From Prolixibacteraceae bacterium (GTDB lineage Bacteria; Bacteroidota; Bacteroidia; Bacteroidales; Prolixibacteraceae): a stretch of 64,000 bases of DNA. How positions within the stretch are numbered: the first letter of the stretch is position 1; every line of letters begins with the position of its first letter. This document shows, one piece after another, positions 18,909-37,714 of this stretch. A model generated the notes under the pieces. The model was not told the DNA's origin. It did no database searches and saw nothing but the letters and a program-made list of their open reading frames with translations. The translations under genes were made by a program, and so were the position numbers. The stretch spans positions 1-64,000 of the forward strand of contig JANXYV010000051.1 in the NCBI GenBank assembly GCA_025355875.1. The letters run 5' to 3'.

Positions 18909-19040
18909 CCTAATGGATGGAAGTTGCAACTTTATAACACTGATTATGACCTAATATCCAGCTCGGTCTTGAACCCTAATATTAGTGCAGAAATCAGGAT
19001 TTGTACCTATCTTAGCTAAATACATAAATTCAAACCGAAA

Positions 19041-19196: not shown

Positions 19197-19236
19197 TGGG
19201 CGACTTAAACAAGACCCCAAAATATTCATGCCCATT
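19120..19236. repeat. Boundary repeat unit A (two AATGGGCGA copies plus inverted GCCCATT)
   Basis: AATGGGCGA occurs at 19120-19128 and 19195-19203, and GCCCATT at 19230-19236. An 11-bp inverted repeat (ATGAATATTTT / AAAATATTCAT) is nested around the second copy. The layout recurs at 28593-28730. Confidence 0.5.
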
Positions 19237-19465
19237 GACTCTCCTTTAACTTCCCCATAGCTTCAGACTAGAACTTGATCCCTTTTACATTTAAAATAAA
19301 TGATTTGACTTTAGACTTATATGGAAAGTTCAGGTTTTATAGAAATTAGACTTAAAACCCATTGTAAACAGTTCTTTGTGGAAACGATAATCTTGAATAT
19401 TGGTACGATGAAAAACTCAATCTATTATTTGTTTAATTTGTAAGTAACTTTATCAAAAAAGAACT

Positions 19466-20227
19466 ATGTACAGTGCGGTAATTATTGATGATGAAGAAGA
19501 TGGAATCAATGTTTTGGCTCAACTTCTGAATGATTTCACCTCGATAAAGGTAAAAGTCATGGATACAGCGACTAATCTTGATGATGGGATTCAAATCATT
19601 AAGAATTCCAATCCTGATATTGTTTTTTTAGATATTGACATGCCCGGCAAAAATGGAATGGCAATCTACAATTATTTTAATGAACCCAACTTCAAAATCA
19701 TTTTTGTCACTGCCTATCAACAATACGCAATAGGTGCATTAAACCATTCGGCATCAGGTTATTTACTTAAACCAGTCAGTTTTGTAGATTTACAGAAATT
19801 ACTACAAAAGGTCACAAAAGAACTTATACATGAGCAACAACAAAGAGAGTTGGAAGATCGGTTAAATATTTTGAGTACGGCAGAAATGACCGGTAAAAAT
19901 ATTATTCTTGATGTGGAAAATGGATTCATCATGGAGAATACCAAGAACATAGAGTATTGTTACGCCAATCAATCTTATTCTGTTGTGGTTTTGCATACCA
20001 AAAAAGAAATTGTTGTCACCAAATCTTTAAAGTCACTCCAGGAATTGTTACCTCAAAACCAATTTTACCGTACCCACAAATCGTATTTGGTAAATGTGTT
20101 TTATATCCGTAAATTTTTTAGAGGAAATGAAAGTTATGTGATTCTTAAAAGTGGCATAAAGGTAGCAGTATCAGTTCGGACAAGTGCAATTATTTCGAAC
20201 GACATCAAAAAAATGCTACTCCAGTGA
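19466..20227 (+). CDS. LytTR-type response regulator
   Basis: 253 aa. Receiver domain with acidic pocket IIDDEEDG at residues 7-14 and phospho-acceptor Asp56 in PDIVFLDIDMPG; the switch Lys is in YLLKPVSF. A LytTR DNA-binding domain fills residues 150-253 (YRTHKSYLVNVFYIRKF). Its stop overlaps the start of the sensor kinase gene (GTGA), so the two are translationally coupled and form one two-component system. LytTR regulators bind direct repeats upstream of targets; no target can be named. AT-rich like the rest of the island. Confidence 0.9.
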   Translation: MYSAVIIDDEEDGINVLAQLLNDFTSIKVKVMDTATNLDDGIQIIKNSNPDIVFLDIDMPGKNGMAIYNYFNEPNFKIIFVTAYQQYAIGALNHSASGYLLKPVSFVDLQKLLQKVTKELIHEQQQRELEDRLNILSTAEMTGKNIILDVENGFIMENTKNIEYCYANQSYSVVVLHTKKEIVVTKSLKSLQELLPQNQFYRTHKSYLVNVFYIRKFFRGNESYVILKSGIKVAVSVRTSAIISNDIKKMLLQ

Positions 20228-23200: not shown

Positions 23201-23238
23201 AAGTTATAATAACCTTAGAGGTCATTTGGGCGACTTAG
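20224..23238 (+). CDS. Sensor histidine kinase with two-component propeller (LytS-like kinase core)
   Basis: 1004 aa, GTG start overlapping the regulator stop. A signal peptide (FIILLICLPLTIFSQ) leads into a periplasmic beta-propeller with repeats of the type DGLPSNVVKSI/DGILWIGTENGLSKYDG, then a Y_Y_Y-type Ig-like domain, a transmembrane helix near 756 (WWFITLMISIFLLIAWFIF), and a His_kinase domain with LQVQMNPHFIFNILNSIQ near 807. The ATPase shows PPMLIQPIIENAIKHGV near 904 and VEDNGIGR near 932. It ends in EVIWAT, whose codons form the TTTGGGCGA boundary motif, so the last residues could derive from a junction. The sensed signal is unknown; many propeller sensors in Bacteroidota sense oligosaccharides. 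Confidence 0.9.
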   Translation: MKIGYIKFIILLICLPLTIFSQSKPYLVFTEDDGLPSNVVKSITKDKDGILWIGTENGLSKYDGQKFINIQKPDGLPGSRVWALASDHKNTIYAGCYRDGLAVIQNGKVARTLHVKSKFPDSIRRLYYSDTFQVLFVGTDFGIYVLKDTTFFDIPYLKDSTVKSSITAIIEYKNQIYFTAPSPNTNNASGVYKLSVNRENPSLSKVDRSLNDKKFGFSLAALNDTLFTNNGEEIYTYPIQNLSQRETIITAKDHFLPWVSSVIGNHEIIIGGFNNGTYIGGLRMLNTISGKLDKTEYGISNQSINDLLNDPESEITWLCSDEGLISLVNTPFESIKYKDINGILDIEEQGDSRYILSNDGLFIIRGGKIIQKFSVKEIESAVIKKRDDLFSPDTTNFRLLINVRVPFLINRLAKNNNKLFVVTNHGSLSIPDLKTYYPFETEKCIFDDKGGAYIVPDYSKLRYFPSIHKPVYSLIKGSQGYISDILKIIGVNDLFIFASYFNGLYAIKDGHVYYLNESNSDLNNYLTGIDADSNGEIWCTTIEGNLFNIGFEDKLYIKRKLNKQNSSIIGSSYKWIKFNEDNLYIGTNKGLNIIPLTQLRKDRSDSVQFFNKSNGYDFISADFPFTDSKGNVYVRALDMLIKINNITIPQNTPKLIVENIMFNNSPANIEMLADQTLPSSTERINIDFLLVKYPTSKNTSYRYCVNDGIWNDGGKLIFESVKPGNYKIELEAKDIETGRIYTKSIRFQISLPLQQRWWFITLMISIFLLIAWFIFKLRVNAVKKQHHEKYRLLRENSELQIRSLQVQMNPHFIFNILNSIQSLIMQSKTKDALQYLGSLGSIIRMNLENVSEEYIPIEDEIRFLKKYIEVEELRFKRKFQIELKNDVPNMNLLVPPMLIQPIIENAIKHGVRGMDNGLVIASFGIENEKLIVTVEDNGIGRVASNQNKIQQHLSKGQGLIEKRLKLLNEKNKTTTNSITITDLVENGHPAGTKVIITLEVIWAT
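23225..23233 (+). repeat. Boundary motif copy (TTTGGGCGA)
   Basis: One-base variant of AATGGGCGA-type motif overlapping the last codons and stop of the sensor kinase gene. A small palindrome (TTGCAGTGCAA) follows about 17 nt downstream. Confidence 0.35.
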
Positions 23239-23436
23239 GTTTCTTGCAGTGCAATATCTTCCCAACTAGACATGTTACGTTTATCCCCAATATCCATACG
23301 TTAAAAAAGTGGATTTAACTGAATGAAATGTAACTGTTAAGTTCGTTTCCAAAAGAATTCAAATGTTGTGGAATTCAAAGTTTACTCCTGTTAATCTCAC
23401 AAATTTGACCTCAAACGAATTATTAACAATATTGTC

Positions 23437-25623
23437 ATGAGAAAAATTCTTTCGACTCAACAAATCACTTCTTCATTCCTGAATAGTAAATCTTATAAAT
23501 CTCTTCTAATTGGATTAGCATTTTTGGGATTATTTACAACATCTTGTTCATCATTATTTTATCAAAATCGTTCTCTGAACAATAGTGTATTAATTACCTC
23601 AAATGTTGAAGATTTTTACATAGAATTTCCATTATTAAATGAAAAAACAAACAAATACAGCGGTTCCTTAACTGCATCATCAGGGAGATTAAATTACCAA
23701 CTTCCTAAACTAAAAAAACAGTATCAAACAATAGATATAAAGCATCCTAATTATGAAACCAAAAGAGTAAAATTAGACAAAGTTGTTCGTCCAGGAGCAT
23801 TAGCCATGGATATAGGATTAAGCATATGGACGTTTGGACTTCCTTTAATTATTGATCCTTTCAGAAGCGACTTTTACAAATTAACGAAGAATTCAAAAGA
23901 GAAAAACCTGAATTTGGATTTCAATCAGTCATTTATGGAACATGAATATCTCTTAATTCATAAATCCAAGGATCCACTTGTTTATATCAATTATATCCAG
24001 AAATACCCGAAATCAAAGATACTTCAACAGGTATATGATAAAAAAGATTCGTTAGAATTATCCATCGCACTATCTCAAAATCAAGAAAAAGCAATTGATG
24101 ATTTTATTTCGACTCATCCAAGATCAACCTACTTAATAGAAGCACAAAAAATTAAAGATGAATTGGAACAGGCAAGATTGGCCTTTGATCTGGCAAAGAC
24201 GGCAAATAATGTTAATTCATACGAAGGTTTTTTATTGAAATTTCCAAAATCACTTTTCAACATAGATGCACATGTTAGTTTAATTAATGCTGCCGAGAAA
24301 ATGGTTTTGTCTTCTAATAATTCAGGTCACATAGTCCAATATATAAACAACTATTTATATAAGTACAAGGATTTTTTGAGGGATGACAGTTTTTCGGATA
24401 AAAACAAATATGTAATGTCAGAACTTCAGAAGCAAATAATTAAGGAACATCCAAGGACAGATTATGCAGGGTATAGTGAATTCTGGAAACGTTTTCAGGA
24501 GGTTGATAATGAACTTACTCAGAGTTCTGACTTTTCACCTTTTGGAAGGACTTACAAACAGAGCATCTCGAATCTATTATTTGCGTCTTTGAAAGAATGT
24601 ACTTCTGAAAGTAAATACAACGAATTAAAGCAGAGCATTCTAAATGACTTTCCAGGTTTATATTCCGGGAGCATCCTGATATACGAGATACTCGATAATT
24701 CAAATAAAAAAGAAGGTTCAATCACACTTTATAACTCCAATTATCTTCAGTATAGTAGCATACAGAATATCAGCAAAACTAAGGTTAGAAATTCGAATAA
24801 TAGAATTGCTAAATACTCACTAAGTGACAGTTATAATTACAAAGGCGTAATGTTTGGAAATTTCCAAAACGTCACGTTAGAAAAGTTAAACTTCAAAGAG
24901 AATGAATTAGATGCACCTCAAGAAGCATTTTCATCATCTGAAATCATCTACAAAGTTGTTTTTGAGAACCAACATGCCAAAGAGGAGAATTTTTATCAAA
25001 ATGGCAAATTGGTTGTAACAAACTCTATGAATGAAAATAATACAATAAAATATACCTACGAATTTGATAACGGTAGAAATATCACTTTTGAAAACCTAGA
25101 TAAGAAAATTAAGGAAACTGACCAATTATTAAAAGAAAAGAAATACCAAGAGGCACTTGACAGTTATAATGAATTATCCAAAAATAACTTTCCAAGCGAC
25201 ATCGAAGCAAATATTAAATTAAGAGATCGGATTACAAAATGTGAAACTGCAAATAATGAACAAGTTCGAATTGCAGAGGAAAAAAAGAAACAAGCAATAG
25301 AAAGTTATGTCTTTTCTGTTACTGGAAATTACATTTCTAAGGATTATGAAGGGCCAATCACTTTAAATGGACTATATTTATATATAATACTTAATAAAAA
25401 AAATGTTATACTAATGGCAATGGGTCGGAGCTTTTCTGAAGCTTTCTCAGATGCAGCGAATGGTATGAGGTCAGGTCGAATAAAAAGTGGCTCTTATACC
25501 TATGATCAAAATTATATTAGCGTTACATGGAGGGATGGTAGCAAAGTGAGATGGCAAGATGGTGGTTTAGGGACTATACGGTGTGGAAATGGTATTACGT
25601 TAGAATTAATAGATGAGCAATAA
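23437..25623 (+). CDS. Large lipoprotein with TPR-like repeats, function unknown
   Basis: 728 aa. The lipobox LGLFTTSC is near residue 37, giving a lipid-anchored protein. After a beta-rich segment there are at least three helical repeats of about 35 residues with a Y/F...KYPKS or THPRS core (YIQKYPKSKILQQVYDKKD, FISTHPRSTYLIEAQKI, FLLKFPKSLFNIDAH), resembling tetratricopeptide repeats. The C-terminal third has a toast-rack-like part (YQNGKLVVTNS) and a final small domain. I do not recognise a named family. It is followed after 46 bp by a secreted protein gene, probably one operon. Confidence 0.65.
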   Translation: MRKILSTQQITSSFLNSKSYKSLLIGLAFLGLFTTSCSSLFYQNRSLNNSVLITSNVEDFYIEFPLLNEKTNKYSGSLTASSGRLNYQLPKLKKQYQTIDIKHPNYETKRVKLDKVVRPGALAMDIGLSIWTFGLPLIIDPFRSDFYKLTKNSKEKNLNLDFNQSFMEHEYLLIHKSKDPLVYINYIQKYPKSKILQQVYDKKDSLELSIALSQNQEKAIDDFISTHPRSTYLIEAQKIKDELEQARLAFDLAKTANNVNSYEGFLLKFPKSLFNIDAHVSLINAAEKMVLSSNNSGHIVQYINNYLYKYKDFLRDDSFSDKNKYVMSELQKQIIKEHPRTDYAGYSEFWKRFQEVDNELTQSSDFSPFGRTYKQSISNLLFASLKECTSESKYNELKQSILNDFPGLYSGSILIYEILDNSNKKEGSITLYNSNYLQYSSIQNISKTKVRNSNNRIAKYSLSDSYNYKGVMFGNFQNVTLEKLNFKENELDAPQEAFSSSEIIYKVVFENQHAKEENFYQNGKLVVTNSMNENNTIKYTYEFDNGRNITFENLDKKIKETDQLLKEKKYQEALDSYNELSKNNFPSDIEANIKLRDRITKCETANNEQVRIAEEKKKQAIESYVFSVTGNYISKDYEGPITLNGLYLYIILNKKNVILMAMGRSFSEAFSDAANGMRSGRIKSGSYTYDQNYISVTWRDGSKVRWQDGGLGTIRCGNGITLELIDEQ

Positions 25624-25669
25624 AGAATGAGTTATTTTCTTTTATGAAAACAACATGTTAAATTAACCT

Positions 25670-26455
25670 ATGAAAAATTTATCTCTAATCTGCACTTTAT
25701 TCCTTTCTTCATTATTTGTACTATATGATGGAGGTGTTGAAGCAACGAATTTAAAAAACAAATTAAATTCAGAGAATAATTCATTGGATGGTAAAATCCA
25801 TACATTTTGTTGGAATGATGTTTCAATACAATTTATTGATGGAGGAAATGCTACCATGACAAGATATGGGTCAAATGGTTCACTTATAAAACAATTCACA
25901 GGGTCATGGAATGAGTATGGATCTCCTACCGATTTGCCCGGCCAAACAATAAAGGCATCATTTAATGGATCTGAGTTTAGTTATACTCTGATATACGATG
26001 GATTTGGGAAACCATCAGTTTTGATAGATGGACAAGGAAGAAGGTATGAATTATGTAATGTGAGAGTCAGTCATGGACTAAACAATTCAGTTCATTCAAA
26101 CAATCCATTGGTGGGTAGTTATTCATTACCAAAGCGAGGGTTAAAGATAACTGTAACCGAAAGGAACGGAAAACTAATTGCAAAGATTACTAGAAATGGG
26201 AAACTTATAACGCGGAATACCTCTTGTGGTATTGTCTCAGAGTTTATTGAAACTGAAAGACGCGGAAGTTCAGATGACTATGCTGCTGATTTGTGCCTAT
26301 ATAATCCAGAGTGTGAAAAACCGATACATGAATATTTTATTGAAATTGATAATCTTAACGATTTATTTGATAAAGCTCATTATATGGTATTTGATACATC
26401 ATTGTGCAAAGAAATTTCAGAAACCAGTTTTAGAGATGTCTTAAAAAAGTTTTAA
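25670..26455 (+). CDS. Secreted protein of unknown function
   Basis: 261 aa. N-terminal signal peptide (NLSLICTLFLSSLFVLYDGG). The mature part has repeated short beta-strand-like segments (VSIQFIDGGNATMTRYGSNG, FSYTLIYDGFGKPSVLID) and three cysteines in the C-terminal third (CGIV, DLCLYNPECE). No family is recognised. AT-rich codon use matches the preceding lipoprotein, 46 bp away, and the two probably act together in the envelope. Confidence 0.6.
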   Translation: MKNLSLICTLFLSSLFVLYDGGVEATNLKNKLNSENNSLDGKIHTFCWNDVSIQFIDGGNATMTRYGSNGSLIKQFTGSWNEYGSPTDLPGQTIKASFNGSEFSYTLIYDGFGKPSVLIDGQGRRYELCNVRVSHGLNNSVHSNNPLVGSYSLPKRGLKITVTERNGKLIAKITRNGKLITRNTSCGIVSEFIETERRGSSDDYAADLCLYNPECEKPIHEYFIEIDNLNDLFDKAHYMVFDTSLCKEISETSFRDVLKKF

Positions 26456-26540
26456 GAGTTTCAATTATTCTGGAACTAAATGTTTAAGAATCTCCTCAAT
26501 CCTGGTATTTTCTGAAAAGGTTCGCCTTTTTCCCAAAATC

Positions 26541-26549
26541 ATTGGGCAA
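26541..26549 (+). repeat. Boundary motif copy (ATTGGGCAA)
   Basis: Degenerate copy of the AATGGGCGA motif, followed about 27 nt later by a hairpin (CGCTCA-ATA-TGAGCG). It lies just upstream of the next gene and makes a misleading TTG start possible. Confidence 0.3.
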
Positions 26550-26580
26550 CTCCATGATAAAGCGTTACATTGCGCTCAAT

Positions 26581-27171
26581 ATGAGCGTATTGATAATTCA
26601 TCCACAGGATCCATCAACAAATTTCCTGAAACCTATTTATGCCACAATCCAAAATAAAACCGTAATAACAGGTGGTATTTCAAAAACCGAATTGAAGGAA
26701 CTGATTAGAAATCATGACAGGATTATAATGTTAGGACATGGCACTCCCAACGGACTACTTTCAGTTGGTCAGTTTCCAATTGTTAGTTCATATGTTATAG
26801 ACTCTTCGTTTTCTGAATTACTTTCCACAAAGACAGACAATATTTACATTTGGTGTCATGCGAATTTCTTTGTCAATGAACACCGACTAAAAGGATTTTT
26901 TTCAGGCATGTTTATTAGTGAAAGTGACGAAACCTTTTACTGTGACTTGTGGGATGTTGATTTAAAGGTAATTGAAGAATCAAATAAATCATTCGTTTCA
27001 GCAGTTGCAAAATATATAGACGAACCTTTACATATATTGTACAAAAATGTAATCAACGAATACGGTGTATTGGAAAAAACGAATCCGATTGCAAAGTATA
27101 ACATGGAGCGGTTGTATTTTAATGACCAAAAGGTGAATTCATTCAACCTTAGATATGGATGTAGAACATAA
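26581..27171 (+). CDS. Possible caspase-like protein (His-Cys dyad), function unknown
   Basis: 196 aa from ATG at 26581. Earlier starts (TTG 26542 and ATG 26554) are inside the boundary motif and hairpin region and add no conserved-looking sequence. His53 lies in DRIIMLGHGTPNG and Cys92 in NIYIWCHANFF, each after a hydrophobic strand, which is the spacing style of clan CD (caspase/CHAT-like) peptidases with a GHG box. This is a pattern reading, not a recognised family; the protein is shorter than a typical caspase domain. It converges on the resolvase gene with only 4 bp between the stops. Confidence 0.55.
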   Translation: MSVLIIHPQDPSTNFLKPIYATIQNKTVITGGISKTELKELIRNHDRIIMLGHGTPNGLLSVGQFPIVSSYVIDSSFSELLSTKTDNIYIWCHANFFVNEHRLKGFFSGMFISESDETFYCDLWDVDLKVIEESNKSFVSAVAKYIDEPLHILYKNVINEYGVLEKTNPIAKYNMERLYFNDQKVNSFNLRYGCRT

Positions 27172-27175
27172 AGGT

Positions 27176-27796
27176 TTATCCAGTTATCAAAAGTCCATGT
27201 TTGACTCCCATTTTTTTGACCTTCATTACTGTTCGTGTGGAGACCCCAGATACTTTACTTGTTTCCCGGACTGTCAACCCTCTTTTCAAGGATTTAATCA
27301 CACTTACACTCAATTCCTTTTTAAGAAAATTCATCTCAGATTCATTTGATCCGGTAGGTCTTCCTAAAACGCCACCTTTTTGGACATAGACCTGACGGCC
27401 AACGGTAGTGCGTTCTTTAATATTTTCCAGCTCCATTTCGTAAAGAGAGGACATCACTGAACTAATCATCTTCCAAATCGGATTCTTTTTCCCATTAGGT
27501 CGAGATTGAAGACCGATATTTCTAACCACTACATTAACACCTTTTTCTTCTAGCCATTCCAGAGTACGAATTACGTCGCCTGTATTTCTCCCGATTCTTG
27601 AAAATTCTTCCAAACAGACAGATTCAACCAAACCGTCTTCAACTAATTTCGTGAGTTCTTTTCCTTTCGGGCGATCCTTAAAACTAACTGAGCCAGAAAC
27701 CTTATCCATCAGAACAAGATCATATACCTCTTTATCCATTGAAAACCGGTCCCCAGTCTGCTGAATGGTCGAAACGCGATTGTATTTTACTTTCAT
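27176..27796 (-). CDS. Serine resolvase/invertase family recombinase
   Basis: 206 aa. Catalytic Ser9 in VKYNRVSTIQQ; the active-site Arg region EEFSRIGRNTGDVIRTLEWL is intact. The C-terminal helix-turn-helix reads LTVRETSKVSGVSTRTVMKV. It is the small resolvase/invertase class, so it acts on a local site pair (resolution or inversion). Upstream (27821-27835) is a near-palindrome AAAAGTAATACTTTT that could be an operator or binding site. Its partner element is not evident, but it lies among the repeated boundary motifs. Confidence 0.85.
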   Translation of the reverse strand: MKVKYNRVSTIQQTGDRFSMDKEVYDLVLMDKVSGSVSFKDRPKGKELTKLVEDGLVESVCLEEFSRIGRNTGDVIRTLEWLEEKGVNVVVRNIGLQSRPNGKKNPIWKMISSVMSSLYEMELENIKERTTVGRQVYVQKGGVLGRPTGSNESEMNFLKKELSVSVIKSLKRGLTVRETSKVSGVSTRTVMKVKKMGVKHGLLITG

Positions 27797-28014
27797 TTGT
27801 ATTATTTTAATTCATACAATAAAAGTAATACTTTTTTACTAAAATGCAGCATTTTACGGGGTAAAAGATCAAATTATCTGCACCACTTTTATTCTTGATT
27901 ATTTGTAAAGCAGCCTGTTAGCTAATTTCGAAATCTTCAATCGTTATCGACTCTTTATAACGCGAAAATTGATTTTACATGTTACATTAGCCCGACTACA
28001 TTTAAAAATGGACT

Positions 28015-28551
28015 ATGGGAAAGACTGATGATTTATTTAGAAATGCGTTTGAAAAGACCTTATTGGAACATGGCTTTTCACAAACGAACAACATGGAGAA
28101 TATTTACCAATTGTCATGGAATAATAATCCCGACCAAGTTGTTACAGCACAATTTTTAGTGTCAGAACCTATTGACGAATTAATTCACGGTAGTCACAAC
28201 GGCAATAAAATACAAGCAATCGGTTACTTCAAATTCAGATTACCCCCTCCGGGGGTTTCAGAACCGGAAATCTTCATTTTCGGTTTCCATAATCTACCAA
28301 ATGATTGTGTGGAATTTATAATCATTCCAACTAATGAGATGAAAAGGAGACTTCGATCAAGAAATCGGTCTAAAAATGAAGATCAGATAATTGAGTTACA
28401 ATTTTGGCTTATGAATGACAACACTGTTTTTCAGACAAAGGATTTTTCCGGGGAAGGGGAATGGTGGTTAATCAATGGGCGGATGGCAGAAGATACGGAT
28501 TTGGACTATTCGGAGTTTCTCAATAATTGGGATGGAATGAAAATGACATGA
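28015..28551 (+). CDS. Hypothetical protein
   Basis: 178 aa, soluble, no signal. It starts MGKTDDLFRNAFEKTLLEHG; the next gene on the opposite strand, once repaired, also starts MGKKDD, which may be coincidence. The middle contains a C/G palindrome (positions 28243-28255) that encodes LPPPG. Acidic C-terminus. No family recognised. Tryptophan- and charge-rich composition suggests a folded cytoplasmic protein. A small frame begins 28 bp after its stop. Confidence 0.55.
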   Translation: MGKTDDLFRNAFEKTLLEHGFSQTNNMENIYQLSWNNNPDQVVTAQFLVSEPIDELIHGSHNGNKIQAIGYFKFRLPPPGVSEPEIFIFGFHNLPNDCVEFIIIPTNEMKRRLRSRNRSKNEDQIIELQFWLMNDNTVFQTKDFSGEGEWWLINGRMAEDTDLDYSEFLNNWDGMKMT

Positions 28552-28579
28552 GTTATCTCCACCAGGAAAATTCCGGGAC

Positions 28580-28732
28580 ATGAAGAAATATCAATGGGCG
28601 AGTTATCCTCTAATTCCCGGAAATCCATGTCCTCATTGCGCTTTAGTTGCGCGATTAGTGCGCTTACCAGGGCAAAGCATTATAGAAGTCAATGGGCGAA
28701 CGATTCACCATCTTTATCTAATTGCCCATTAA
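28580..28732 (+). CDS. Possible small zinc-binding protein (50 aa)
   Basis: ATG at 28580 opens a 50-codon frame ending at TAA 28732. It begins KKYQWASYPLIPGNPCPHC; C-x2-C at residues 17-20 and an HH pair at 43-44 could bind one zinc. It resembles the 51-aa frame at 19041-19196 (Q-W-A-S, G-N, C-x2-C). The 3' end overlaps, tail to tail, the end of the interrupted minus-strand gene by about 44 bp. It contains both AATGGGCGA copies of repeat unit B. Expression is uncertain. Confidence 0.35.
   Translation: MKKYQWASYPLIPGNPCPHCALVARLVRLPGQSIIEVNGRTIHHLYLIAH
28593..28730. repeat. Boundary repeat unit B
   Basis: AATGGGCGA at 28593-28601 and 28691-28699, then GCCCATT at 28724-28730. The spacing of the last copy to the inverted GCCCATT (26 nt) is nearly the same as in unit A (28 nt). 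Confidence 0.5.
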
Positions 28733-28985
28733 CAATGCTCTCCGGGATGTCATCACCGGTGGATATATCCTCAAGATGATCCCCAAAATTCGGATCCGGA
28801 TTCCAATACCGAGTTGATAATAAAACAAGTAGTGCAATAAAATCACGCCTATAACCGGAAAATGTAATTTTTTTAGTCTCATCATCAGGTATGTTGTACT
28901 CCCGTATGAACTTCTCGAAATTATATTCCGGAAAAAATGACGTATCTGTGTCTCCGTTTAGAAAATCATATAGCCTCCAATAAAT

Positions 28986-30196
28986 CACGGCTGTTCAATT
29001 CTATAAAAATTGTTGATAACTATATAAACTGTAATGGGACAGGCTGTTTTCGTACATTTCACCTTTGATGTTTGTGACATTATTTTTTCTCATGATGTTT
29101 AAAGCAAAGCTTCGAAGTCTGGCCATGTTGTCTGCATTGACCCTGATTCTCGAAAAATCTTCCTGCATGGAAACATCGCGCACATAATGGTTTGAGTTTT
29201 CGATCTTCCAGTGTTTTTGGATGCAGGGGAACGCTTGCCCTGCGGACAACCCACTATTTGACACATAATAAGCTGTTTCGTTGCTTGTTTCGTACAACTT
29301 GGTTTTTGTGTTTAGCGTTTGTGTGTTTCTTTCCACCCGGTAAATGGTTTTTATAAACCCCTGCCATTGCTTGTCTTCTATAAAATCACCATCGTTTGCA
29401 TATGCCATTAGTTTTCTCTTTTCGATCCTCCCATGTTCCAAGTTTTCTTCCTCATGCTGGCCGGTTGGCCGGACGAACCGCACCAAATCTTCGCAGTTGG
29501 ACAAAAGCCCTTTTTGGTTCTCTTTCAATTGCACGATTAACAGTTTGTCCTTTTCTTCGGCTATTTCAAAAGTTTTTTTTGGCAGTGAAGGGCATCTATC
29601 GTGTAATAATAACCCTCCAAACCGGTTTCTTCCAGTAGTTTCTGCACCATGGGTATTTCGTTGGTTTTTTCATCGATGACCTCGTGGGCAAGGATAAGCT
29701 TATCTTCTGTGCTGAACATGGATAGTATCTGCGTGGCTCGCCTGTCCTGAAAATGGTCATAACTCCCGCGAAGGACTTTCCCTTCAAGGGCAATAGTCGC
29801 TATTGAGCTGGCATTTTTCCTGTCAATAAGCGATTGGGTGTAAGCACGGAAACACGCCTCTAATTCGTCACTGTCAACGCCAATGATGATATTACGAATG
29901 GTCGTGTATCCGGGAGGTCTTGTCCAGGTTAACCCAAAATGACCTTTTAATACCTCAAAACGGGTCTTGATAAAACTGCTGATGTCCCGGTACGATTTGG
30001 CATTGCTTAAAAATGCCATGATACTGAAAAGAATAATGTGTTCCAATTTGTATCTTTGCCCTTGGGCTCTTCGATGATCTTGAAGGTCTGCGAGGAATGT
30101 TGAAATCATAAAACTTTGTTTTTTAGTTCATTACAAAGTTATCAACATTCCTCTGTTTTTAGAACTTCAGAATTCAATTAGAATTGAACAGCCGTG
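28986..30196 (-). mobile_element. ISAs1-type insertion sequence with 10-bp target duplication
   Basis: 1211 bp. The ends carry an 18-bp perfect inverted repeat (CACGGCTGTTCAATTCTA). TCCAATAAAT is present at 28976-28985 and again at 30197-30206, a clear target-site duplication, so this is a recent, complete insertion. The transposase gene runs on the minus strand in two overlapping frames. Confidence 0.92.
29001..30109 (-). CDS. ISAs1-family transposase, frameshifted
   Basis: The first frame (30109 to 29561, 182 aa) has the ISAs1 N-terminus (ADLQDHRRAQGQRYKLEHII), the DDE Asp in GKVLRG-type context and TIDALHCQKK. The second frame (to 29001) continues as FEIAEEKDKLLIVQLKENQ and ends with the conserved WKIENSNHYVRDVSMQEDFS block (Glu of the triad). 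The switch is a -1 shift at a run of eight A on the coding strand (29573-29580). Either programmed slippage makes the full protein, or a single-base change in the run has inactivated it. Standard ISAs1 elements use one frame, which favours mutation. Confidence 0.8.
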
Positions 30197-30227
30197 TCCA
30201 ATAAATAGTGTCATCCTTTTTTCCCAT

Positions 30228-30732
30228 ACATATAAATATCTGTGAATTGGGTTTTTGGATAGATTTTGGTGTTAATTTCTAAAATATAGTGTTAAAATAC
30301 CCGTCTTTCCAGTTCGCCCATTAACCTTAATTTTTCTCCCTGGGGGGATCTGAATGAATTGAACCTGGCGTTTATAATCCACCAAATTCGATTGACTGCC
30401 ATGTTTACAATTTTGTTGGTGCAGAAATTTTCAGCAAAACCCCTCCGGGGTTCAAATAGGGCTTAATCCCCACCGGTTAATTTTCAGTCATATATTGATC
30501 AACATTATAACAATCAAATTCCACTGGTAGTCTATCCTATCCCATATTTTAGTCATTCTGTCCCGTTTAAAACTAAACGAATTCGGAGTTGGACTTTATA
30601 AAAAAGGGCACGACATAAAAATCGTGAGCGGATACTAAATGCAAGACAAAAAACGGAAACGGCCAATAAAAATTTTTGGGGATAATCCGATTATTTTTAT
30701 TCGGTATTGTTGCTGATCTATCCGGTAATAAA
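30228..30732. other. Gene-free stretch with palindrome and boundary motif
   Basis: No coding region. It contains the reversed boundary motif (30314-30322), the C/G palindrome AACCCCTCCGGGGTT (30438-30452) and a related CCCCACCGG at about 30468. The right end is the promoter region of the next gene. Confidence 0.5.
30314..30322 (-). repeat. Boundary motif copy (reverse)
   Basis: TCGCCCATT, the exact reverse complement of AATGGGCGA, in non-coding sequence. Confidence 0.4.
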
Positions 30733-30740
30733 TACATTTG
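30733..30740 (+). promoter_or_regulatory. Bacteroidetes -7 box TACATTTG
   Basis: TACATTTG fits the TAnnTTTG -7 consensus; GTTG 19 nt upstream is a weak -33. A transcript starting a few bases later would exclude the ATG at 30741 and supports ATG 30762 as the start of the next gene. Confidence 0.45.
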
Positions 30741-30761
30741 ATGAAATCCAATTTAAACATT

Positions 30762-31823
30762 ATGAAAGTTCACATTACATCTATTCCGGGATATTCTAAA
30801 GAGAATATTGAGCAAGTCACTTCATTGTTAAGCGAAGTTAGGGGTGAAATCAGCTATTTCAAATGCGACCCAATAACCCCCGAACAGATGATGCTTATAG
30901 ACGATAAGTTTGAAGATTTTAATGGAGTTAAAACACTTTCATTTCAGGACTTTTTCAAAATTGCCAATAAATACAGGATAATAAAATCCATTCCGAAGGA
31001 AGACATTGTTGTTGTATTATCAACTGTTAAGCATGATCTTAATTGGTTTAGTGGCGGTTCAATCAATAATATATTTGTTGATACGCGAGGCTGGGAATAC
31101 ATTACCGATAGTGATTCCAAATACGGTATAGCCTACCAAATAATAGAAAATATTTTTCAACTGTTGGTTGGGATTGAATATGATAATGCGGTTACTGATC
31201 CAAATGTTCATCATACCTCAATCGGATGTATCAATGATATGTGTAAAAGCAAAATGGAGGTAATCTCAAAATTAAGAAGTGCTTATATCTGTGTTTCATG
31301 TCAGAAACGGGCAATCAACATGAACGTTGATACAATTATTTTGCTACAAATTATATCAACTATCCAAAAAATCAGGGATGGATTGATGAATTTTGATTTG
31401 ATTTTAAATAGTTTGAAACCCCTACCTACGGTTGTGGAAGAGAACAGTATAGTTAGAATTGGTGGAAAAGAAATCATGTTACAAGCTGTTCCAAAAACGC
31501 TATTCATCTTTTATTTATCAAATATTGATGGTGTCAAGGTTGACTCATTAGAGGATAATCATCACAAGGAAAAACTACTTGCAATTTATAGATCCATCAG
31601 AAGAGGAGGGAGAAGAGAAACTGTTGACAGCTTGTGCCTCCCTCAGAATAATGAGGGTTCAACATTCCCAAAAGTAAGAACTGAAACGAATAAATATTTG
31701 ATAAACGCATTTGATAAGGTCTTATCAGAATTTTATGTAATTAATAATATTCATGGGCCAGCGTATAACTTTTACAAAATACAATTACCTGCTGAATACC
31801 TAACTTTTAAACTCAATTTATAA
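30762..31823 (+). CDS. Archaemetzincin-like protein lacking the HExxH site
   Basis: 353 aa. ATG 30762 (MKVHITSIPGYSKENIEQV) is chosen over 30741 because the -7 box abuts the latter. Near residue 150 there is HHTSIGC-x4-C followed by C-x2-C (YICVSC) 15 residues later, close to the C-x4-C...C-x2-C zinc pattern of archaemetzincins. The region where HExxH should be reads QIIENIFQLLVGI, so the catalytic His residues are missing. The C-terminal part (about 230-353) may be a winged-helix-like domain. A structural or regulatory zinc protein is more likely than a protease. No close relative is named here. Confidence 0.5.
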   Translation: MKVHITSIPGYSKENIEQVTSLLSEVRGEISYFKCDPITPEQMMLIDDKFEDFNGVKTLSFQDFFKIANKYRIIKSIPKEDIVVVLSTVKHDLNWFSGGSINNIFVDTRGWEYITDSDSKYGIAYQIIENIFQLLVGIEYDNAVTDPNVHHTSIGCINDMCKSKMEVISKLRSAYICVSCQKRAINMNVDTIILLQIISTIQKIRDGLMNFDLILNSLKPLPTVVEENSIVRIGGKEIMLQAVPKTLFIFYLSNIDGVKVDSLEDNHHKEKLLAIYRSIRRGGRRETVDSLCLPQNNEGSTFPKVRTETNKYLINAFDKVLSEFYVINNIHGPAYNFYKIQLPAEYLTFKLNL

Positions 31824-31943
31824 CTTTTCGTAACCTTACAAACATAGTTCGGAACTTACTTAAAGTTTAGTAAGGTTATTTATTAATCATAATAATACGA
31901 CTCTTCGGATCTTCGTTGAAAATTAATTCTAAAAATTTTCAAC

Positions 31944-33638
31944 ATGAAAGATTCAAAATTCACACAGCCAAATTCCCAATTTAAAACAGGGAAAAACATT
32001 CAGAGAGTTAACCTCAATGATGTAGTTATTTCAGAAGTCACTTACAAGCTGTACGATTATTCCAATCGTGAGACTGAAATCCAAGCTCTGGTAGAGAGTA
32101 TTGATGAAATTGGTCAATGTGAACCAATTGTTGTATTACAGGTTGGTGACAAGTATCCTTTAGTTGATGGTGTATTACGCCTGATGGCATGTATTCGTTT
32201 AAATCTAAACGAAGTTGATGTGATTGTTTCCGATTTTGTTCCAACAAACGATTTTAGTTTGACGGATTTCATCATCCACCACCAAATTCGGAAGGAAAAA
32301 ACACCAGGTGAAAAGATGAATGAGATCCGGGAAATTCTCCGGATTGACCGGGAAGACAAAAACCCCCTGCGGGACAAAGAAAAGAGGGTAAAACTTGTTT
32401 CCGCTTTGATGGGTGGAAAAGGATGGGGTAGAAATAATGTCTTCAACCTCGAAAAGATCATGCGTTGGGAGAAATCTCATGATAACGGTCTAAACCTGTC
32501 TCAACAGGTGGTTTCTAATAATATAGCTACTTCAAGAGCTATTGAAGCTACCGAACTTATCGACAACAATAATTTCGATAAGTCCAAGGAGGACGAATCG
32601 TGTATTGTTAAGGAGTTCCTGAAGGGGTCTTATGAAAAAGACAGGGCCAGAAACCTTATGATAACATACGAGAACAAAAAGAATGTTCTACCAACGACAA
32701 TTGACCTTCAACCAATCGTTGCCCGGAACTTCAACATTATCAAAGGTAATATTGAAGTGATTGACCTACCTATCGATCTTCAAATCGATACCATTTTCAC
32801 CTCACCCCCTTACTACAAGATAGTTAAGTATGGTGATGATCCCAATGAATTGGGATGGGAACAAACCCCGGACGAATATGTGAAAAGGTTATCAGACATC
32901 CTGATGAAGTGTTTTGACAAACTGAAAAACTCTGGTTCGATGTTCGTGAACATTGGTGAAACATATGAAGACAGTCAATGTCTTGGTGTCATAGATAGGT
33001 TGACTTGTGAACTGATGTCTCGTGGTGTCCGTTTGGTTGATAAGTTAATTTGGAACAAACCCGGAAATAAACCAGTCGGAAACAATGTTAGACGTTTTTC
33101 CCCTGGATATGAGGTAATCCTTCATTTCTCGAAAACGAGGGATTACTACTTTGAAAAGTTCAGGGTACAGGGTGATAAACCCCTGAAGGTTTCACATGGA
33201 TGTAAGGAAAAGGGAAGTAACAAAGTCGGTTTCCACATCCCTAATAAACACCAGTATTTCCGGAATATCATTACTCCGGAGGAATTGACCAATGTTCTGA
33301 CAGTCCAGATTCAGAAAAACAGAACTCACCATGTTGAAGGTGAACAGATTCACCCCGCTACATTTTCATGGGATCTTCCCTTTTTACCACTCGTAACAAC
33401 ATGTCCTCCAAACGAAGGAACGGTAGTTTTTGACCCATTCATGGGTTCTGGTTCATGTGGTGTTACCGCTCTACAGTTGGGGTTCAAATTCGTTGGGGTT
33501 GAACTGTACGATAAGAATATCGTTACCGCCCGAAGAATACTGAGTGAAATTGAAACCGAGCTTGAGGAAAATGAGTTGAGTCCCATTATGGATGAGTGTG
33601 GAACAATAAACGATTCTGAAATAAGTATTGCTGCCTGA
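31944..33638 (+). CDS. ParB-like domain fused to N4/N6 DNA methyltransferase
   Basis: 564 aa. Residues 20-130 look like a ParB/Srx-type domain (PIVVLQVGDKYPLVDGVLRL, then HHQIRKEKTPGEK). The second half is a type beta-class amino-methyltransferase: catalytic TSPPYY near 284 and the AdoMet motif DPFMGSGSCGVTALQLGFKF near 496, with a target-recognition stretch between. Such solitary ParB-methyltransferase fusions are found on phages and integrative elements and probably methylate DNA without a cognate nuclease. No restriction gene is seen nearby. A terminator hairpin follows. Confidence 0.88.
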   Translation: MKDSKFTQPNSQFKTGKNIQRVNLNDVVISEVTYKLYDYSNRETEIQALVESIDEIGQCEPIVVLQVGDKYPLVDGVLRLMACIRLNLNEVDVIVSDFVPTNDFSLTDFIIHHQIRKEKTPGEKMNEIREILRIDREDKNPLRDKEKRVKLVSALMGGKGWGRNNVFNLEKIMRWEKSHDNGLNLSQQVVSNNIATSRAIEATELIDNNNFDKSKEDESCIVKEFLKGSYEKDRARNLMITYENKKNVLPTTIDLQPIVARNFNIIKGNIEVIDLPIDLQIDTIFTSPPYYKIVKYGDDPNELGWEQTPDEYVKRLSDILMKCFDKLKNSGSMFVNIGETYEDSQCLGVIDRLTCELMSRGVRLVDKLIWNKPGNKPVGNNVRRFSPGYEVILHFSKTRDYYFEKFRVQGDKPLKVSHGCKEKGSNKVGFHIPNKHQYFRNIITPEELTNVLTVQIQKNRTHHVEGEQIHPATFSWDLPFLPLVTTCPPNEGTVVFDPFMGSGSCGVTALQLGFKFVGVELYDKNIVTARRILSEIETELEENELSPIMDECGTINDSEISIAA

Positions 33639-33650
33639 CCCTGGTATCTT

Positions 33651-33685
33651 GAAAATGGACGTGGCTGATCACCATGTCCATTTTC
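33651..33685 (+). terminator. Terminator after methyltransferase gene
   Basis: GAAAATGGAC pairs with GTCCATTTTC across a 15-nt loop, followed by a pyrimidine-rich tail, 13 bp after the methyltransferase stop. Confidence 0.65.
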
Positions 33686-34061
33686 TTCTCTCTATACTTT
33701 AAAACGTACTTTCACTTCAACATGAATGAACATAGTAGATTTTAACCCCTCCGGGGTCATTCTAAGAGATTATTTTAGTTGAAGAGTACAATAGTCCCCT
33801 TTTAACGACGGTCTTTTGAATCGATTAAAAATGTTGTAATTAATTGAATGTAGCTTTATTACAAAATATTTGTTTGCATATTTTTTATTGTCATTTATTT
33901 TCCTTATATTTTATTAAACAGAGATTCTGAAACCCCCACCGGTGGGTTTCTAATCGACAATCCCAAAGTCTTATTAAGGCTAAAAAAATAAAGTCAAATG
34001 ACTAATGGAATTGGTATGTCAATAATTAAAGTTGAATTCTATTATTAAAAGGTTTTACACC
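33686..34061. other. Gene-free stretch with two GC palindromes
   Basis: No coding region. ACCCCTCCGGGGT at 33745-33757 and AAACCCCCACCGGTGGGTTT at 33929-33948 stand out in otherwise very AT-rich DNA. The right end is the leader of the next gene. Confidence 0.5.
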
Positions 34062-34769
34062 ATGAAAAAAAACAAAAACAGAAAAGGTTTATGGATACCC
34101 AAAGAATTACTTGAAAATCCAGAATTAGATTGTACCAATAAAATGTTGCTATCCGAAATACATTCTCTTCATGAATTGGAGAAGGGTTGTTTTGCACCTA
34201 ACGAATTCTTCTCAGATTTACTTGGAATGACAAAATCCGCAGCATCAAAGAGAATAACGCGATTAAAGAACCTTGGATATATCACTACTAAGAACATATA
34301 TGAAAAGGGCAATTGTATTGGAAGAGTTATTGTCCCAACGTTCAAGAAATTTAATTCAGAAATACGCCCCGAATCGAATAAAGGTAGTTCTCCAAAGAAT
34401 CAGGTGGTAGTTCCTGAACAATTGAATGGTAGTTCTCAAACGACATTGGAGGTAGTTCCAGAAATACCGGATGGTAGTTCCATTACGAACACAATTAATA
34501 CAACTACTAATTCAAAAGAACTAATACAAGTTACTAATACAGATGCTGGCGATGTTTCGGAGCTGTTTTTAACTGATAGCACGAAAATTGAATCTAAAAC
34601 ATCAATTCAGAAAGCGAGATCGGCATACAACGAATGGTTCGATGATTATCCAAATTGGGAAAGCGATCTGCTTTTATTAGGAATTGAGGAGTTTATTAGA
34701 CGAACAACAAAATATCATTCCAACAGATCGGAAGAAATTGCCATGATAAGATGGTACGCAACTTTATGA
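34062..34769 (+). CDS. Winged-helix protein of plasmid/ICE replication-initiator type
   Basis: 235 aa from ATG 34062 (MKKNKNRKGLWIPKELLENP); an upstream ATG at 34032 is possible. The first 100 residues form a helix-turn-helix/winged-helix domain (LLSEIHSLHELEKGCFAPNE, MTKSAASKRITRLKNLGYI) as in phage replisome organisers and accessory-element Rep proteins. The middle is a low-complexity, Ser/Thr/Asn-rich linker with GSSP/GSSQ/GSSI repeats, and the C-terminus is a small helical domain. Repeats and a long hairpin follow immediately, which would fit an origin. Confidence 0.6.
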   Translation: MKKNKNRKGLWIPKELLENPELDCTNKMLLSEIHSLHELEKGCFAPNEFFSDLLGMTKSAASKRITRLKNLGYITTKNIYEKGNCIGRVIVPTFKKFNSEIRPESNKGSSPKNQVVVPEQLNGSSQTTLEVVPEIPDGSSITNTINTTTNSKELIQVTNTDAGDVSELFLTDSTKIESKTSIQKARSAYNEWFDDYPNWESDLLLLGIEEFIRRTTKYHSNRSEEIAMIRWYATL

Positions 34770-35033
34770 TTCCAACAGAACGAAGTGATCAGGATTTTAA
34801 ACGGGCCTGATTTGTTGGAATGGCAAAGACAAAGACTCCAACTAAACTTGAATCTTATCGCGAGTATCCAGGATATAAAGAAAAAAACAAGCTCTCAACT
34901 TATGGGGTTTTAATCGATTTTGGGACGCTCAGTTTAAGAATAAACAAATCCATCCAATCAGAGCTGCCAATTCAGCCAGAACGTCTAATGCTATGTTAAA
35001 AACAAATATAAATAAATGTAATTCCAACAGAAC
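34717..35033 (+). repeat. Three iteron-like ATTCCAACAGA repeats with a long hairpin
   Basis: ATTCCAACAGA occurs at 34717, 34769 and 35021. The second copy pairs with TGTTGGAAT at 34813-34821; inside, TGATCAGG pairs with CCTGAT, so 34769-34821 can form one long imperfect hairpin. The first copy overlaps the end of the Rep-like gene. Confidence 0.5.
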
Positions 35034-35268
35034 ACCATGATAATATTTGATCAGATACCGCAGAGGAATACAGGTGTTAAAAAAACAATCCCAACCGACG
35101 AGGGACGAGGAGTTGAACCATCACTCCCCCAGTTGCGCTCACCCCTCTCTTCCAAAGATTTGAAGTTCTATCCTGGATTTATTCAACATGGCGAAATTCA
35201 ATCTAAGCACTAAATTGATAATTTCTAAAAGCATAAAAAGAAACAATAACATATAAAAAAGAAACAAA
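34822..35268. other. Gene-free stretch, possible origin region
   Basis: Short, broken frames only; no start-to-stop gene that looks real. It holds the third ATTCCAACAGA copy and the leader of the next gene. Confidence 0.35.
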
Positions 35269-35604
35269 ATGGAAAAGTTAATTGAAAAGATAGGGGCAGA
35301 CCGGTTGGTTATTCACCCTAATCATGTAGATAAAGTCAGTCTGACCTACAAAGAAATATTGGAAGGGTCATTAAAAAGAACGAGTAAGCAACCTGGAAAT
35401 TTAATCATCGCAGTCCCGATACTTGACTCCCAAATACCTGGTTATTATTGGGTGGTAGAGGGAAGGACGGCTCTGGGATTGATGATTCATAAAGGCTACT
35501 TCGAAGTGGAGGCTCTAGTTTATCAGATTACCAATGAATCCCAGATCATGGATCTGATTCGTAATCTGGAAGAACAAAATGGTCAAATTGATGATGAAAT
35601 ATGA
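35269..35604 (+). CDS. Small ParB/Srx-like domain protein
   Basis: 111 aa. VIHPNHVDKVSL...ILEGSLK followed by GYYWVVEGRTALGLMIHKGY resembles the ParB nuclease-like fold (the VEGRTAL segment matches the usual DG-x-R-R box), as in the N-terminus of the methyltransferase at 31944. No HTH is present, so it is not a complete ParB. It may be a regulator or modifier within the element. A perfect 14-bp palindrome overlaps its end. Confidence 0.6.
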   Translation: MEKLIEKIGADRLVIHPNHVDKVSLTYKEILEGSLKRTSKQPGNLIIAVPILDSQIPGYYWVVEGRTALGLMIHKGYFEVEALVYQITNESQIMDLIRNLEEQNGQIDDEI

Positions 35605-35616
35605 TAGAATTCTATC
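35603..35616. promoter_or_regulatory. 14-bp perfect palindrome
   Basis: GATAGAATTCTATC overlaps the stop of the small ParB-like gene. It could be a protein binding site for that protein or a weak terminator; no T-run follows. Confidence 0.3.
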
Positions 35617-35977
35617 GTCATCCTATCAAATGACAGGAAGTTAAAAAACCTACATTTTCTAAAAAGTTGGCCAGAATTTTTTTTTCTGATCTAAGTAAGT
35701 GTCTAATATATAGCCATTTCCCCTGGAAATTTTTTAGACGGATCCGTACATATCACATAATAGTCTGATTATCAGTATATAAGGGAAAGTACGAGGGAAG
35801 GAAGCCCGGAACCACCTACTCTCCCAGGGGGAATCACCGGATCTGGAGCACAATAGTCAATGGGCGACTACTTCTCTAGTTATCAGCTATTTATTTAGCA
35901 TTAAATTTACATTTAACCCCTTTCCGATTTGACTTTCTCAAAATTAAGGTTTATATTTTATTAAAACCTAAATTCAA
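35617..35977. other. Gene-free stretch before the recombinase module
   Basis: No gene. It contains a short palindrome CTGATTATCAG (about 35765) and a boundary motif AATGGGCGA at 35859-35867. Confidence 0.4.
35859..35867 (+). repeat. Boundary motif copy (AATGGGCGA)
   Basis: Exact copy in non-coding DNA, preceded by GTC as at 28688. No inverted GCCCATT follows within 60 bp. Confidence 0.4.
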
Positions 35978-36118
35978 ATGTTGAACGAAAAGGAATGTAC
36001 CCAAATACTAAACGAAGGAGATGAAAAATTCAATCTTGAAGAGGTAAAACTCATCCGTGAATTGCTAACAACACTGGTGACAATTGAATATGACTATTAT
36101 AAACAAGAATCTAAATAA
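35978..36118 (+). CDS. Small protein upstream of the recombinase (46 aa)
   Basis: ATG at 35978, stop 36118, 12 bp before the recombinase start. Reads MLNEKECTQILNEGDEKFNL then EEVKLIRELLTTLVTIEYDY. Small helical proteins with an EEVKLIR-like core are often found directly before serine or tyrosine recombinases in mobile elements. It may be a recombination directionality factor or a co-regulator; that is inference from position. Confidence 0.6.
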   Translation: MLNEKECTQILNEGDEKFNLEEVKLIRELLTTLVTIEYDYYKQESK

Positions 36119-36130
36119 AGATCAAAATAC

Positions 36131-37711
36131 ATGAATGTAATTTGCTATAAACGTGTTAGCACCGACGACCAGGCTGACAAGGGTTTCAGTTTACAGCATC
36201 AGGAAAAGATGTTAAGACAATATTGTGAATTTAATGATTACAATATTGTTGGAATGTACACGGAAGATTATTCCGCTAAAACCTTCGATAGGCCAGAGTG
36301 GCAAAAGATTCTAACATTCATCAAGAAGAACAAAAAAATGGTTGATGTTGTCTTATGTTTACGTTGGGATAGGTTTTCAAGAAATTTGTATGACGCATTA
36401 ACAACCATCAAAGAACTTCATAAACTGGGAGTAAAAATCACCACTATTGAACAACCGTTGGATTTAACCAATCCAGACAATAAGGTTTTATTGAGTATGT
36501 ACCTTACCCTACCTGAAGTAGAAAACGATAAGAATTCCAAAAGAACCAAAGACGGGATGCACAGAGCGAAGGTTGAAGGATGTTATACATCCAAAGCCCC
36601 GAAGGGGTATGTCAATTATAGGGATGGTAAAAATGCTACGGTCAGACCAAATAAAGATGCACCGCTAATTAAACAAGCATTTGAGCGAATGTCAACGGGC
36701 AGTTACTCCGCAGATGAAGTTCGTCGTTGGCTAAACAAAGAGGGTGTTACAATTTCAAAGCAGATATTTTTAAACACCCTGAGAAATCCAATTTATGCTG
36801 GTAAAATTCGCGTTTTTGCTCATGGTAATGAACCGGAACAAACAGTTATTGGATTACATCCGGCAATTGTATCTAATGACGTTTTTCACCGAGCCAATGA
36901 AGTTTTGGATGGTCGTAAGCGTAATATGAAGTTCCATGACGATAAATCCGATATATACCCCCTAAAAGGGTTTTTAACCTGTCCGACTCATGGAACATTA
37001 TTAACTGCTTATGCCTGTAAAAACCACATGGGAAACCTATACCATTATTATATCTGTACAAAATGTAAAGGTGATCAGCGCCATCCGATAAATGATGTAC
37101 ATGAAAGTATTGAAAACATACTATCAACCATTTCAATCTCAGCACAGACGGTCAATTTATATCGGAAGATGTTGGAAAAACTGTTTGATAAGGAAGACTC
37201 AATGAGAAAAGATGAAATTACCAAGACTGAAAGGGAGATTGAAAAGATTCGGAATCGTATTACATCACTTCAAGATCAGTTCATGGATAAACAGATTGAC
37301 CCTCAAGATTATCATTTGATGAAACAACGGGTTGAAAAAGACCAGATAGGACTAAGTTGCAAATTGAAAGACCTGAAAGCCGATAAGTCTCCCTTCAAGG
37401 AATACATTAAACACACGGTTCCTTTGTTGGAGAACTTGGTGTCATATTACAGGAAGTCGGATGGGAATACCAAAAAGAAGATATTAAGTTGCATCTTTTC
37501 GAAAAAAATCGTTTTGGAGAAATCAAAAGTTGCAACCTACGAATTCACTACACCCATTAAGGTTTTACTCAATGCCAGCAAGGTTTGCAGAGGGACAAAA
37601 AAAAGACAAGAGCTCGAAAATGAACTCTTGTCCTGTATGGCTCCTCAGGTAGGACTTGAACCTACGACCTACGGATTAACAGTCCGCCGCTCTAACCAAC
37701 TGAGCTACTGA
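36131..37711 (+). CDS. Large serine recombinase (integrase of the island)
   Basis: 526 aa as read. Catalytic Ser10 in ICYKRVSTDDQ, Arg block LRWDRFSRNLYDAL, recombinase domain APKGYVNYRDG to GLHPAIVSNDVFHRANEVL, zinc ribbon with CPTHG...CTKC near residues 285-325, and a coiled coil at about 365-420. It lies directly at the tRNA-Asn gene, in the position expected of an integrase next to its attachment site. The reading frame has no stop until it has crossed the tRNA terminator and most of the tRNA gene in antisense, so the last 40 or so residues (from about RGTKKRQELEN) are junction-derived and may not be native. Confidence 0.9.
   Translation: MNVICYKRVSTDDQADKGFSLQHQEKMLRQYCEFNDYNIVGMYTEDYSAKTFDRPEWQKILTFIKKNKKMVDVVLCLRWDRFSRNLYDALTTIKELHKLGVKITTIEQPLDLTNPDNKVLLSMYLTLPEVENDKNSKRTKDGMHRAKVEGCYTSKAPKGYVNYRDGKNATVRPNKDAPLIKQAFERMSTGSYSADEVRRWLNKEGVTISKQIFLNTLRNPIYAGKIRVFAHGNEPEQTVIGLHPAIVSNDVFHRANEVLDGRKRNMKFHDDKSDIYPLKGFLTCPTHGTLLTAYACKNHMGNLYHYYICTKCKGDQRHPINDVHESIENILSTISISAQTVNLYRKMLEKLFDKEDSMRKDEITKTEREIEKIRNRITSLQDQFMDKQIDPQDYHLMKQRVEKDQIGLSCKLKDLKADKSPFKEYIKHTVPLLENLVSYYRKSDGNTKKKILSCIFSKKIVLEKSKVATYEFTTPIKVLLNASKVCRGTKKRQELENELLSCMAPQVGLEPTTYGLTVRRSNQLSY
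37595..37632 (-). terminator. Terminator of tRNA-Asn, inside the recombinase frame
   Basis: GACAAGAG and CTCTTGTC form a stem; on the minus strand eight T follow. It is 6 nt downstream of the tRNA 3' end and lies within the recombinase reading frame. Confidence 0.7.
37638..37644. other. Putative right attachment site (TGGCTCC)
   Basis: This is the tRNA-Asn 3' end including CCA. TGGCTCC also occurs at 18902-18908. Recombination between them would leave an intact tRNA followed by the hairpin at 18847-18881. Confidence 0.45.
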
Positions 37712-37714
37712 GGA
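37638..37714 (-). tRNA. tRNA-Asn (anticodon GTT)
   Basis: On the minus strand the gene starts TCCTCAGTAGCTCAGTTGG and ends CTGAGGA-G-CCA. Acceptor stem TCCTCAG/CTGAGGA, D-loop with GGTTAGAG, anticodon arm CGGACTGTTAATCCG (anticodon at 37678-37680), and a T-arm with GGTTCAAGTCC are all present. CCA is encoded. It lies 1.2 kb from asnS, the cognate synthetase. Confidence 0.95.

Follow-up and report, generated by a model that had tools for sequence, protein, structure and literature searches.

The window, a stretch of 64,000 nucleotides from a Prolixibacteraceae bacterium, carries on its plus strand (36131–37711) a gene for a large serine recombinase (LSR), which codes for 526 amino acids in the chromosomal reading and belongs to a family found at 46 loci (see below). 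The protein has a Resolvase catalytic domain (PF00239, 1.2e-32) followed by a Recombinase domain (PF07508, 8.8e-10), which is the layout of large serine recombinases; a zinc ribbon (PF13408) scores 15.8 bits, under the 25.3-bit cut-off. S10 and its adjacent residues, as well as C284 and C309, are invariant among 15 homologues. AF2 modelling of the integrated protein (mean pLDDT 74, pTM 0.33) gives a folded body with long helices at residues 338–417 and a pLDDT below 50 for residues 485–526; the part of the protein that is exchanged upon recombination is therefore a tail.

The reading frame of this gene runs into a tRNA gene. Its stop codon, TAG at 37709–37711, lies within a minus-strand tRNA-Asn(GTT) (37638–37714) and no stop occurs earlier. 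About 38–40 C-terminal residues come from a tRNA terminator hairpin with its T-run (minus strand, approximately 37597–37633, identified by its fold), whose plus strand codes for KKRQELENELLS, and from antisense tRNA sequence, which makes up the final 24–25 codons of the integrated gene and provides its stop. The chromosomal end of the protein reads SCMAPQVGLEPTTYGLTVRRSNQLSY. These results agree with the original prediction, which had placed the stop at the same position and had attributed about 40 residues to the terminator and the antisense tRNA. Near position 37598 the window has a run of eight A, which is nine A long in L021/L066 and L032/L073; these copies lack most of the recombinase N-terminus, and their longer run was read as decay.

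The recombinase gene lies at the right end of an integrated element (18902–37644), which is bounded by direct repeats of the core TGGCTCC. The right copy (37638–37644) is the CCA end of the tRNA, read antisense, and the tRNA is intact; the left copy (18902–18908) is followed on the plus strand (18909–18954) by a predicted circle-state tail (LMDGSCNFITLIMT) and a TAA stop at 18952–18954. The first part of this tail is conserved in same-genus left ends, and more weakly in the related element G455. Just outside the element, at 18850–18882 on the minus strand, lies the displaced native terminator of the tRNA. It resembles the hairpin that adjoins the tRNA in four relatives with an empty site (L071, L074, L075 and L080). 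The cargo (19466–23238, 27176–27796, 29001–30109 and 31944–33638) includes a LytTR response regulator, a propeller histidine kinase, a small resolvase, a transposase-like gene split in two (PF13808) and a DNA methylase that has a weak ParB domain.

Searching 61 genomes with the tRNA plus the adjacent gene yielded 17 strong same-genus loci (L066–L082), six of which have an empty site (L071, L072, L074, L075, L077 and L080). In these six loci, a sequence similar to the left flank of the window, with its terminator hairpin, is placed directly against the tRNA, the match stopping about 14 nt before the tRNA in L077. Twelve further places, distributed over 5 of the 61 genomes, match the left end of the window. 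Most of TGGCTCCCCTAATGGATGGAAGTTGCAAC is common to 10 of the 12 and is found weakly in L278; the match in L271 covers the outer part of the left end only and is probably due to chance. At four of the 12 places (L272, L275, L277 and L278), the C-terminal sequence of a recombinase is joined via the core to a left end, an arrangement that looks like a tandem insertion and has the sequence expected of a circle. A hairpin of the right-end type is present at the left end in L274 and some others, and the tandem copies themselves are mostly truncated. This type of tRNA-Asn element forms arrays in the window's genus, either tandem or made of remnants, in which right-end hairpins connect to additional left ends (L272, L274, L275, L277 and L278).

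The same-genus empty sites and the tandem copies, compared at the sequence level, confirm that the joint at TGGCTCC (18902–18908/37638–37644) is real. Across this joint the recombinase frame continues as ENELLSCMAPLMDGSCNFITLIMT, and the circle form ends in MAPLMDGSCNFITLIMT before the TAA at 18952–18954. Read in silico from the two ends and in the tandem junctions, the frame thus spans the att core in both states. The prediction that the frame would stay open across the junction and stop near 18954, giving the protein one C-terminus when the element is integrated and another when it is excised, is borne out for the junction, both frames and both stops. The natural tandem junctions have the predicted joint rather than one in another frame, and a recombinase of the same clade at a site unrelated to tRNA does not share the junction-like end. 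The latter (L027:11500–11560) lies beside the core GCTCC, apparently within a host gene, and its tail is KKAPFCGFTFDTYNHM. No copy of the element was found among 50,697 phage records (tblastn, E 1e-40, queries from the window and L046) or 72,556 plasmid records (same threshold, query L046), and a scan of viral contigs gave no match.

The family was collected in three ways. A scan of genome contigs gave 33 related loci; 395 Bacteroidota genomes were surveyed at E 1e-70, and 27 of them, the window's included, had a match, which added 29 loci (L036–L064), one matching place being left out; and four others came from the genus of the window, including two (L126 and L129) at tRNA-Lys genes. The recombinase abuts a minus-strand tRNA at 46 loci: the window, 20 loci from the scan, 23 of the 29 from the survey and two from the genus. 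These form 36 clusters at 80% identity. The frame count leaves out fragments (L021 and L032), a masked end (L002), loci whose tRNA is not adjacent (L004, L005 and L039) and loci where no tRNA abuts the gene or a contig end cuts it. The targets are tRNA-Asn, Arg (four anticodons), Met, Lys (two), Pro (two), Glu (two) and Leu. In a tree of the recombinase bodies the target changes repeatedly, tRNA-Met occurring in three separate places.

None of the 36 clusters has an in-frame stop within the last 66 nt before the tRNA, compared to 28 and 33 of 36 for the other two forward frames. The coding stretch contains a terminator hairpin for the tRNA strand in 35 of the 36 clusters, versus one and two at control offsets within the gene. 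Moreover, 33 clusters, over at least 13 tRNA anticodons, share one phase of entry into the tRNA, in which the antisense T-arm is read as G(L/F/I)EP or a close variant of it (RLEL, RIEL or GFKP, in L025, L044, L047, L051 and L059). L029 and L043 have a different entry phase. L053 (genome G021) has a stop at the tRNA boundary and one base fewer in its hairpin than L176; it is likely frameshifted, and was retained in the counts as phase 2. The distribution of the open frame, judged from these comparisons, goes beyond chance and makes it a trait of the family.

L006–L010 are nearly one element at tRNA-Asn, on contigs labelled as different families (Rhodobacteraceae for L006), which reflects either recent transfer or a binning error. 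The recombinases of L126 and L129, in the same genome (G412), have identical tails at two tRNA-Lys genes, and both contigs stop about 18 kb upstream of the recombinase, which suggests that the element is repeated.

Left ends were sought in other clades. Exact repeats alone gave many chance matches of 8–9 bases, and comparison with empty sites and conserved patterns were used instead. The tRNA-Met left-end pattern was found at 47 places in 31 of 249 genomes of one genus, with no match in a reversed control. Among the 33 distinct left ends that could be read, 31 keep the recombinase frame up to a stop at codon 20–23, and the peptides, of which VAGSIQLSNQFFEDYYSIIACAS is typical, are similar to one another; the exceptions are L191, with one extra base, and L234, with an early stop. 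The pattern for tRNA-Arg(ACG) is looser: it matched 54 places in 28 of the 249 genomes, against about 27 matches in the reversed control, and 45 places were taken as left ends, judged by the matched strings. The spacing fits the frame in 33 of these 45, is one base short in 11 and one base long in one. Of 19 distinct frame-fitting Arg left ends (25-nt span), 17 stop at codon 22–25, as in VTSTGQITTSFLDDLKKLAYYM and its relatives, and two stop at codon 11. The one-base-short class recurs (L187, L245, L256 and others, 11 places) with the sequence GTGACCTTACTGAACAATTTACAA; it preserves the peptide, but in a frame other than that of the recombinase. No start codon that would serve the tail alone was seen between the core and the peptide.

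In the recombinase frame, the dN/dS of these short stretches is 0.61 for the Met left ends (27 sequences) versus 1.32 and 1.17 in the other frames, and 0.64 for the Arg left ends (14 sequences) versus 1.27 and 0.93, near-duplicates being removed in both cases; overall, the other frames span 0.92–1.32. About 2% of column shuffles gave equally low values. A motif-filtered Arg set of 13 sequences gave 0.52, the filter having dropped L254, which has an early stop. The tails of these two clades look selected rather than accidental, as far as such comparisons go. The weakest case for a selected tail is the window's own clade: the tail is variable past MAPLMDGSCN in same-genus left ends, most of which, however, belong to decayed arrays. 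Many Met tails end in ALAS, ACAS or AYAS, which resembles the end (NYALAA) of the host ssrA tag, GENNYALAA in five of five genomes. The LAS/CAS-type ends might be a degradation tag, by analogy with that of the phage BPs (see below), but this does not suit the Arg and window tails, whose ends are of another type.

Both ends could be assigned in seven elements, the nearest left end being paired with the recombinase where a genome has several (G507, G170 and G481). The frame is kept in six of them: the window, G455 (Asn), G222 and G507 (Met), and G170 and G481 (Arg). The G455 recombinase is 60% identical and its tail is MAPLTDERCNYNKLHFTF. In the seventh, G025 (Arg), which is a full-length element, the assigned left end is one base out of frame. 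The C-terminus is predicted to differ between the integrated and circular forms in all seven. Two candidate left ends, in G459 (50 kb away) and G025_Met (reading VADK and a stop), were left out of the counts. In the tRNA-Asn group G456–G460 no convincing left end was found, and none was recognised in G517 and G474 (60 kb each), G516 (40 kb) and G021_ArgACG (19 kb).

The best explanation, to which we give a probability of about 0.62, is that attP lies in the 3' end of the recombinase gene, that integration swaps the tails, and that the activity or stability of the enzyme changes from one form to the other. As long as the element is an excised circle, the gene would be whole, made of the body and the tail encoded at the left end of the element. 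Integration at the tRNA 3' end would cut the gene at the core and fuse the body to antisense tRNA sequence, which would then supply the last residues and the stop, while the right-end bases would rebuild the 3' end of the tRNA and bring a new terminator on the opposite strand. The right end of the element would have three roles at once, as coding sequence of the recombinase, as 3' end of the tRNA and as its terminator, which the hairpin and frame data support. What is read directly from the sequences is the joint, both frames, the open frame throughout the family and the conserved left-end tail in two clades; on this basis, the location of attP within the gene and the existence of two state-specific isoforms are well supported. 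Both forms would be made, and the exchange may alter the activity or stability of the recombinase, as reported for the phage Mx8. A first guess, based on this analogy, would have the circle form tuned to integrate and the integrated form altered in activity or stability; we infer such a switch between the isoforms. A point against the best explanation is that 12 of the 45 Arg left ends, that of G025 included, are out of frame by one base; another is the near-constant distance between body and core, which might on its own preserve the phase.

The main competitor of a meaningful exchange is harmless read-through, in which only the body of the recombinase matters and the frame ends wherever the neighbouring DNA stops it, the att half-site and the tRNA terminator leaving no space for a stop before the core. 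This would account for the variable left-end tails of the window's clade, for the out-of-frame Arg left ends, for the different tail of the same-clade recombinase at a non-tRNA site and for the low confidence of the tail in the structure model. In addition, the element cannot shape the part encoded by the tRNA. Harmless read-through sits poorly, however, with the absence of any stop before the core in 36 clusters, with the near-fixed stop of the Met left-end tails and with a dN/dS clearly below 1 in the recombinase frame only, for both Met and Arg (one other Arg frame is at 0.92–0.93), and we consider it rather unlikely. The original prediction left open whether the exchange is meaningful or harmless; the evidence leans to a meaningful one because all 36 clusters are stop-free before the tRNA and because, in two clades, the left-end tail has a near-fixed stop and no other frame has so low a dN/dS as that of the recombinase.

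Two other explanations have less in their favor. The T-arm peptide G(L/F/I)EP could be a functional tag of the integrated state, for which the phase would be kept; indeed, the phase that gives it is found in 33 of 36 clusters over at least 13 anticodons. However, the spacing from body to core is near-constant (the last 50 codons are gap-free in an alignment of 15 proteins), so that the phase could persist by itself. L029 and L043 enter in another phase, five loci have variants of the peptide, and the constraint on the tRNA precludes the use of conservation as a test. Such a tag seems improbable. Finally, the window gene could be decaying and have lost its stop, as several same-genus copies at tRNA-Asn are truncated or frameshifted, but the window copy is full length, has the invariant residues of the family and shares its open layout with 45 other loci, which makes decay very improbable.

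The principle of an att site inside the integrase gene, with exchange of the C-terminus, is already known from Mx8 and from the streptococcal ICEs in rumA, as they are described in the sources cited here. In the Myxococcus xanthus phage Mx8, attP is inside the integrase gene and integration replaces 112 C-terminal residues by 13 (PMC4701971, PMC6070905); the integrated form is described as less active (PMC4701971) or as altered in specificity (PMC6070905). The layout is the same here, but the Mx8 enzyme is a tyrosine recombinase in a single phage system, whereas the present family consists of serine recombinases with many tRNA targets and a short tail on both sides. In the rumA ICEs, the single serine integrase has the att site inside its own gene, and the 3' ends are exchanged, which alters the C-terminus (PMC4701971). 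According to that account, however, these ICEs disrupt a protein-coding target and both genes change their reading frame, whereas here the tRNA 3' end is rebuilt, one entry phase is found in 33 of 36 clusters and there is a conserved counter-tail. In the integration-dependent immunity of the mycobacteriophage BPs, attP is also inside a gene whose C-terminus is changed by integration, but this gene encodes the repressor: its free form has an ssrA-like degradation tag, and truncation makes the integrated form shorter by 33 residues (PMC4557955).

Like the tRNA-gene genomic islands collected in Islander (2015), the element lies in a tRNA 3' end and the tRNA is restored. Those islands have tyrosine integrases, some of which are mentioned as extending across attP, and according to the article, no serine integrase was known to target tRNA genes (PMC4383910). 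The present family shows, in contrast to this 2015 statement, that Bacteroidota have serine integrases at many of their tRNA genes. In the open-licence literature we found neither a description of such integrases at Bacteroidota tRNA genes, an absence that is not thereby proven, nor one of a serine integrase family that combines many tRNA targets with one antisense phase and a conserved counter-tail. The apparently undescribed part is the combination of many tRNA targets with a conserved frame.

A stretch of about 60 bases here carries protein code on one strand and a tRNA end and terminator on the other, and genome annotation may mistakenly cut off such C-termini, taking them for spurious reading frames antisense to a tRNA. 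Serine integrases are widely used in genome engineering, and vectors derived from such enzymes should include the circle tail. How these integrases are controlled to integrate or to excise is a long-standing question. It is possible, although we regard the idea as tentative, that serine integrases of a wide family use their own recombination to change their C-terminus and thereby possess a built-in switch, for directionality or self-limitation. Any tRNA gene could donate the "integrated" tail, since the antisense T-arm in the kept phase gives nearly the same G(L/F/I)EP, while the circle would have its own selected tail. A natural family whose tail is rewritten by recombination would make tail-dependent control directly testable.
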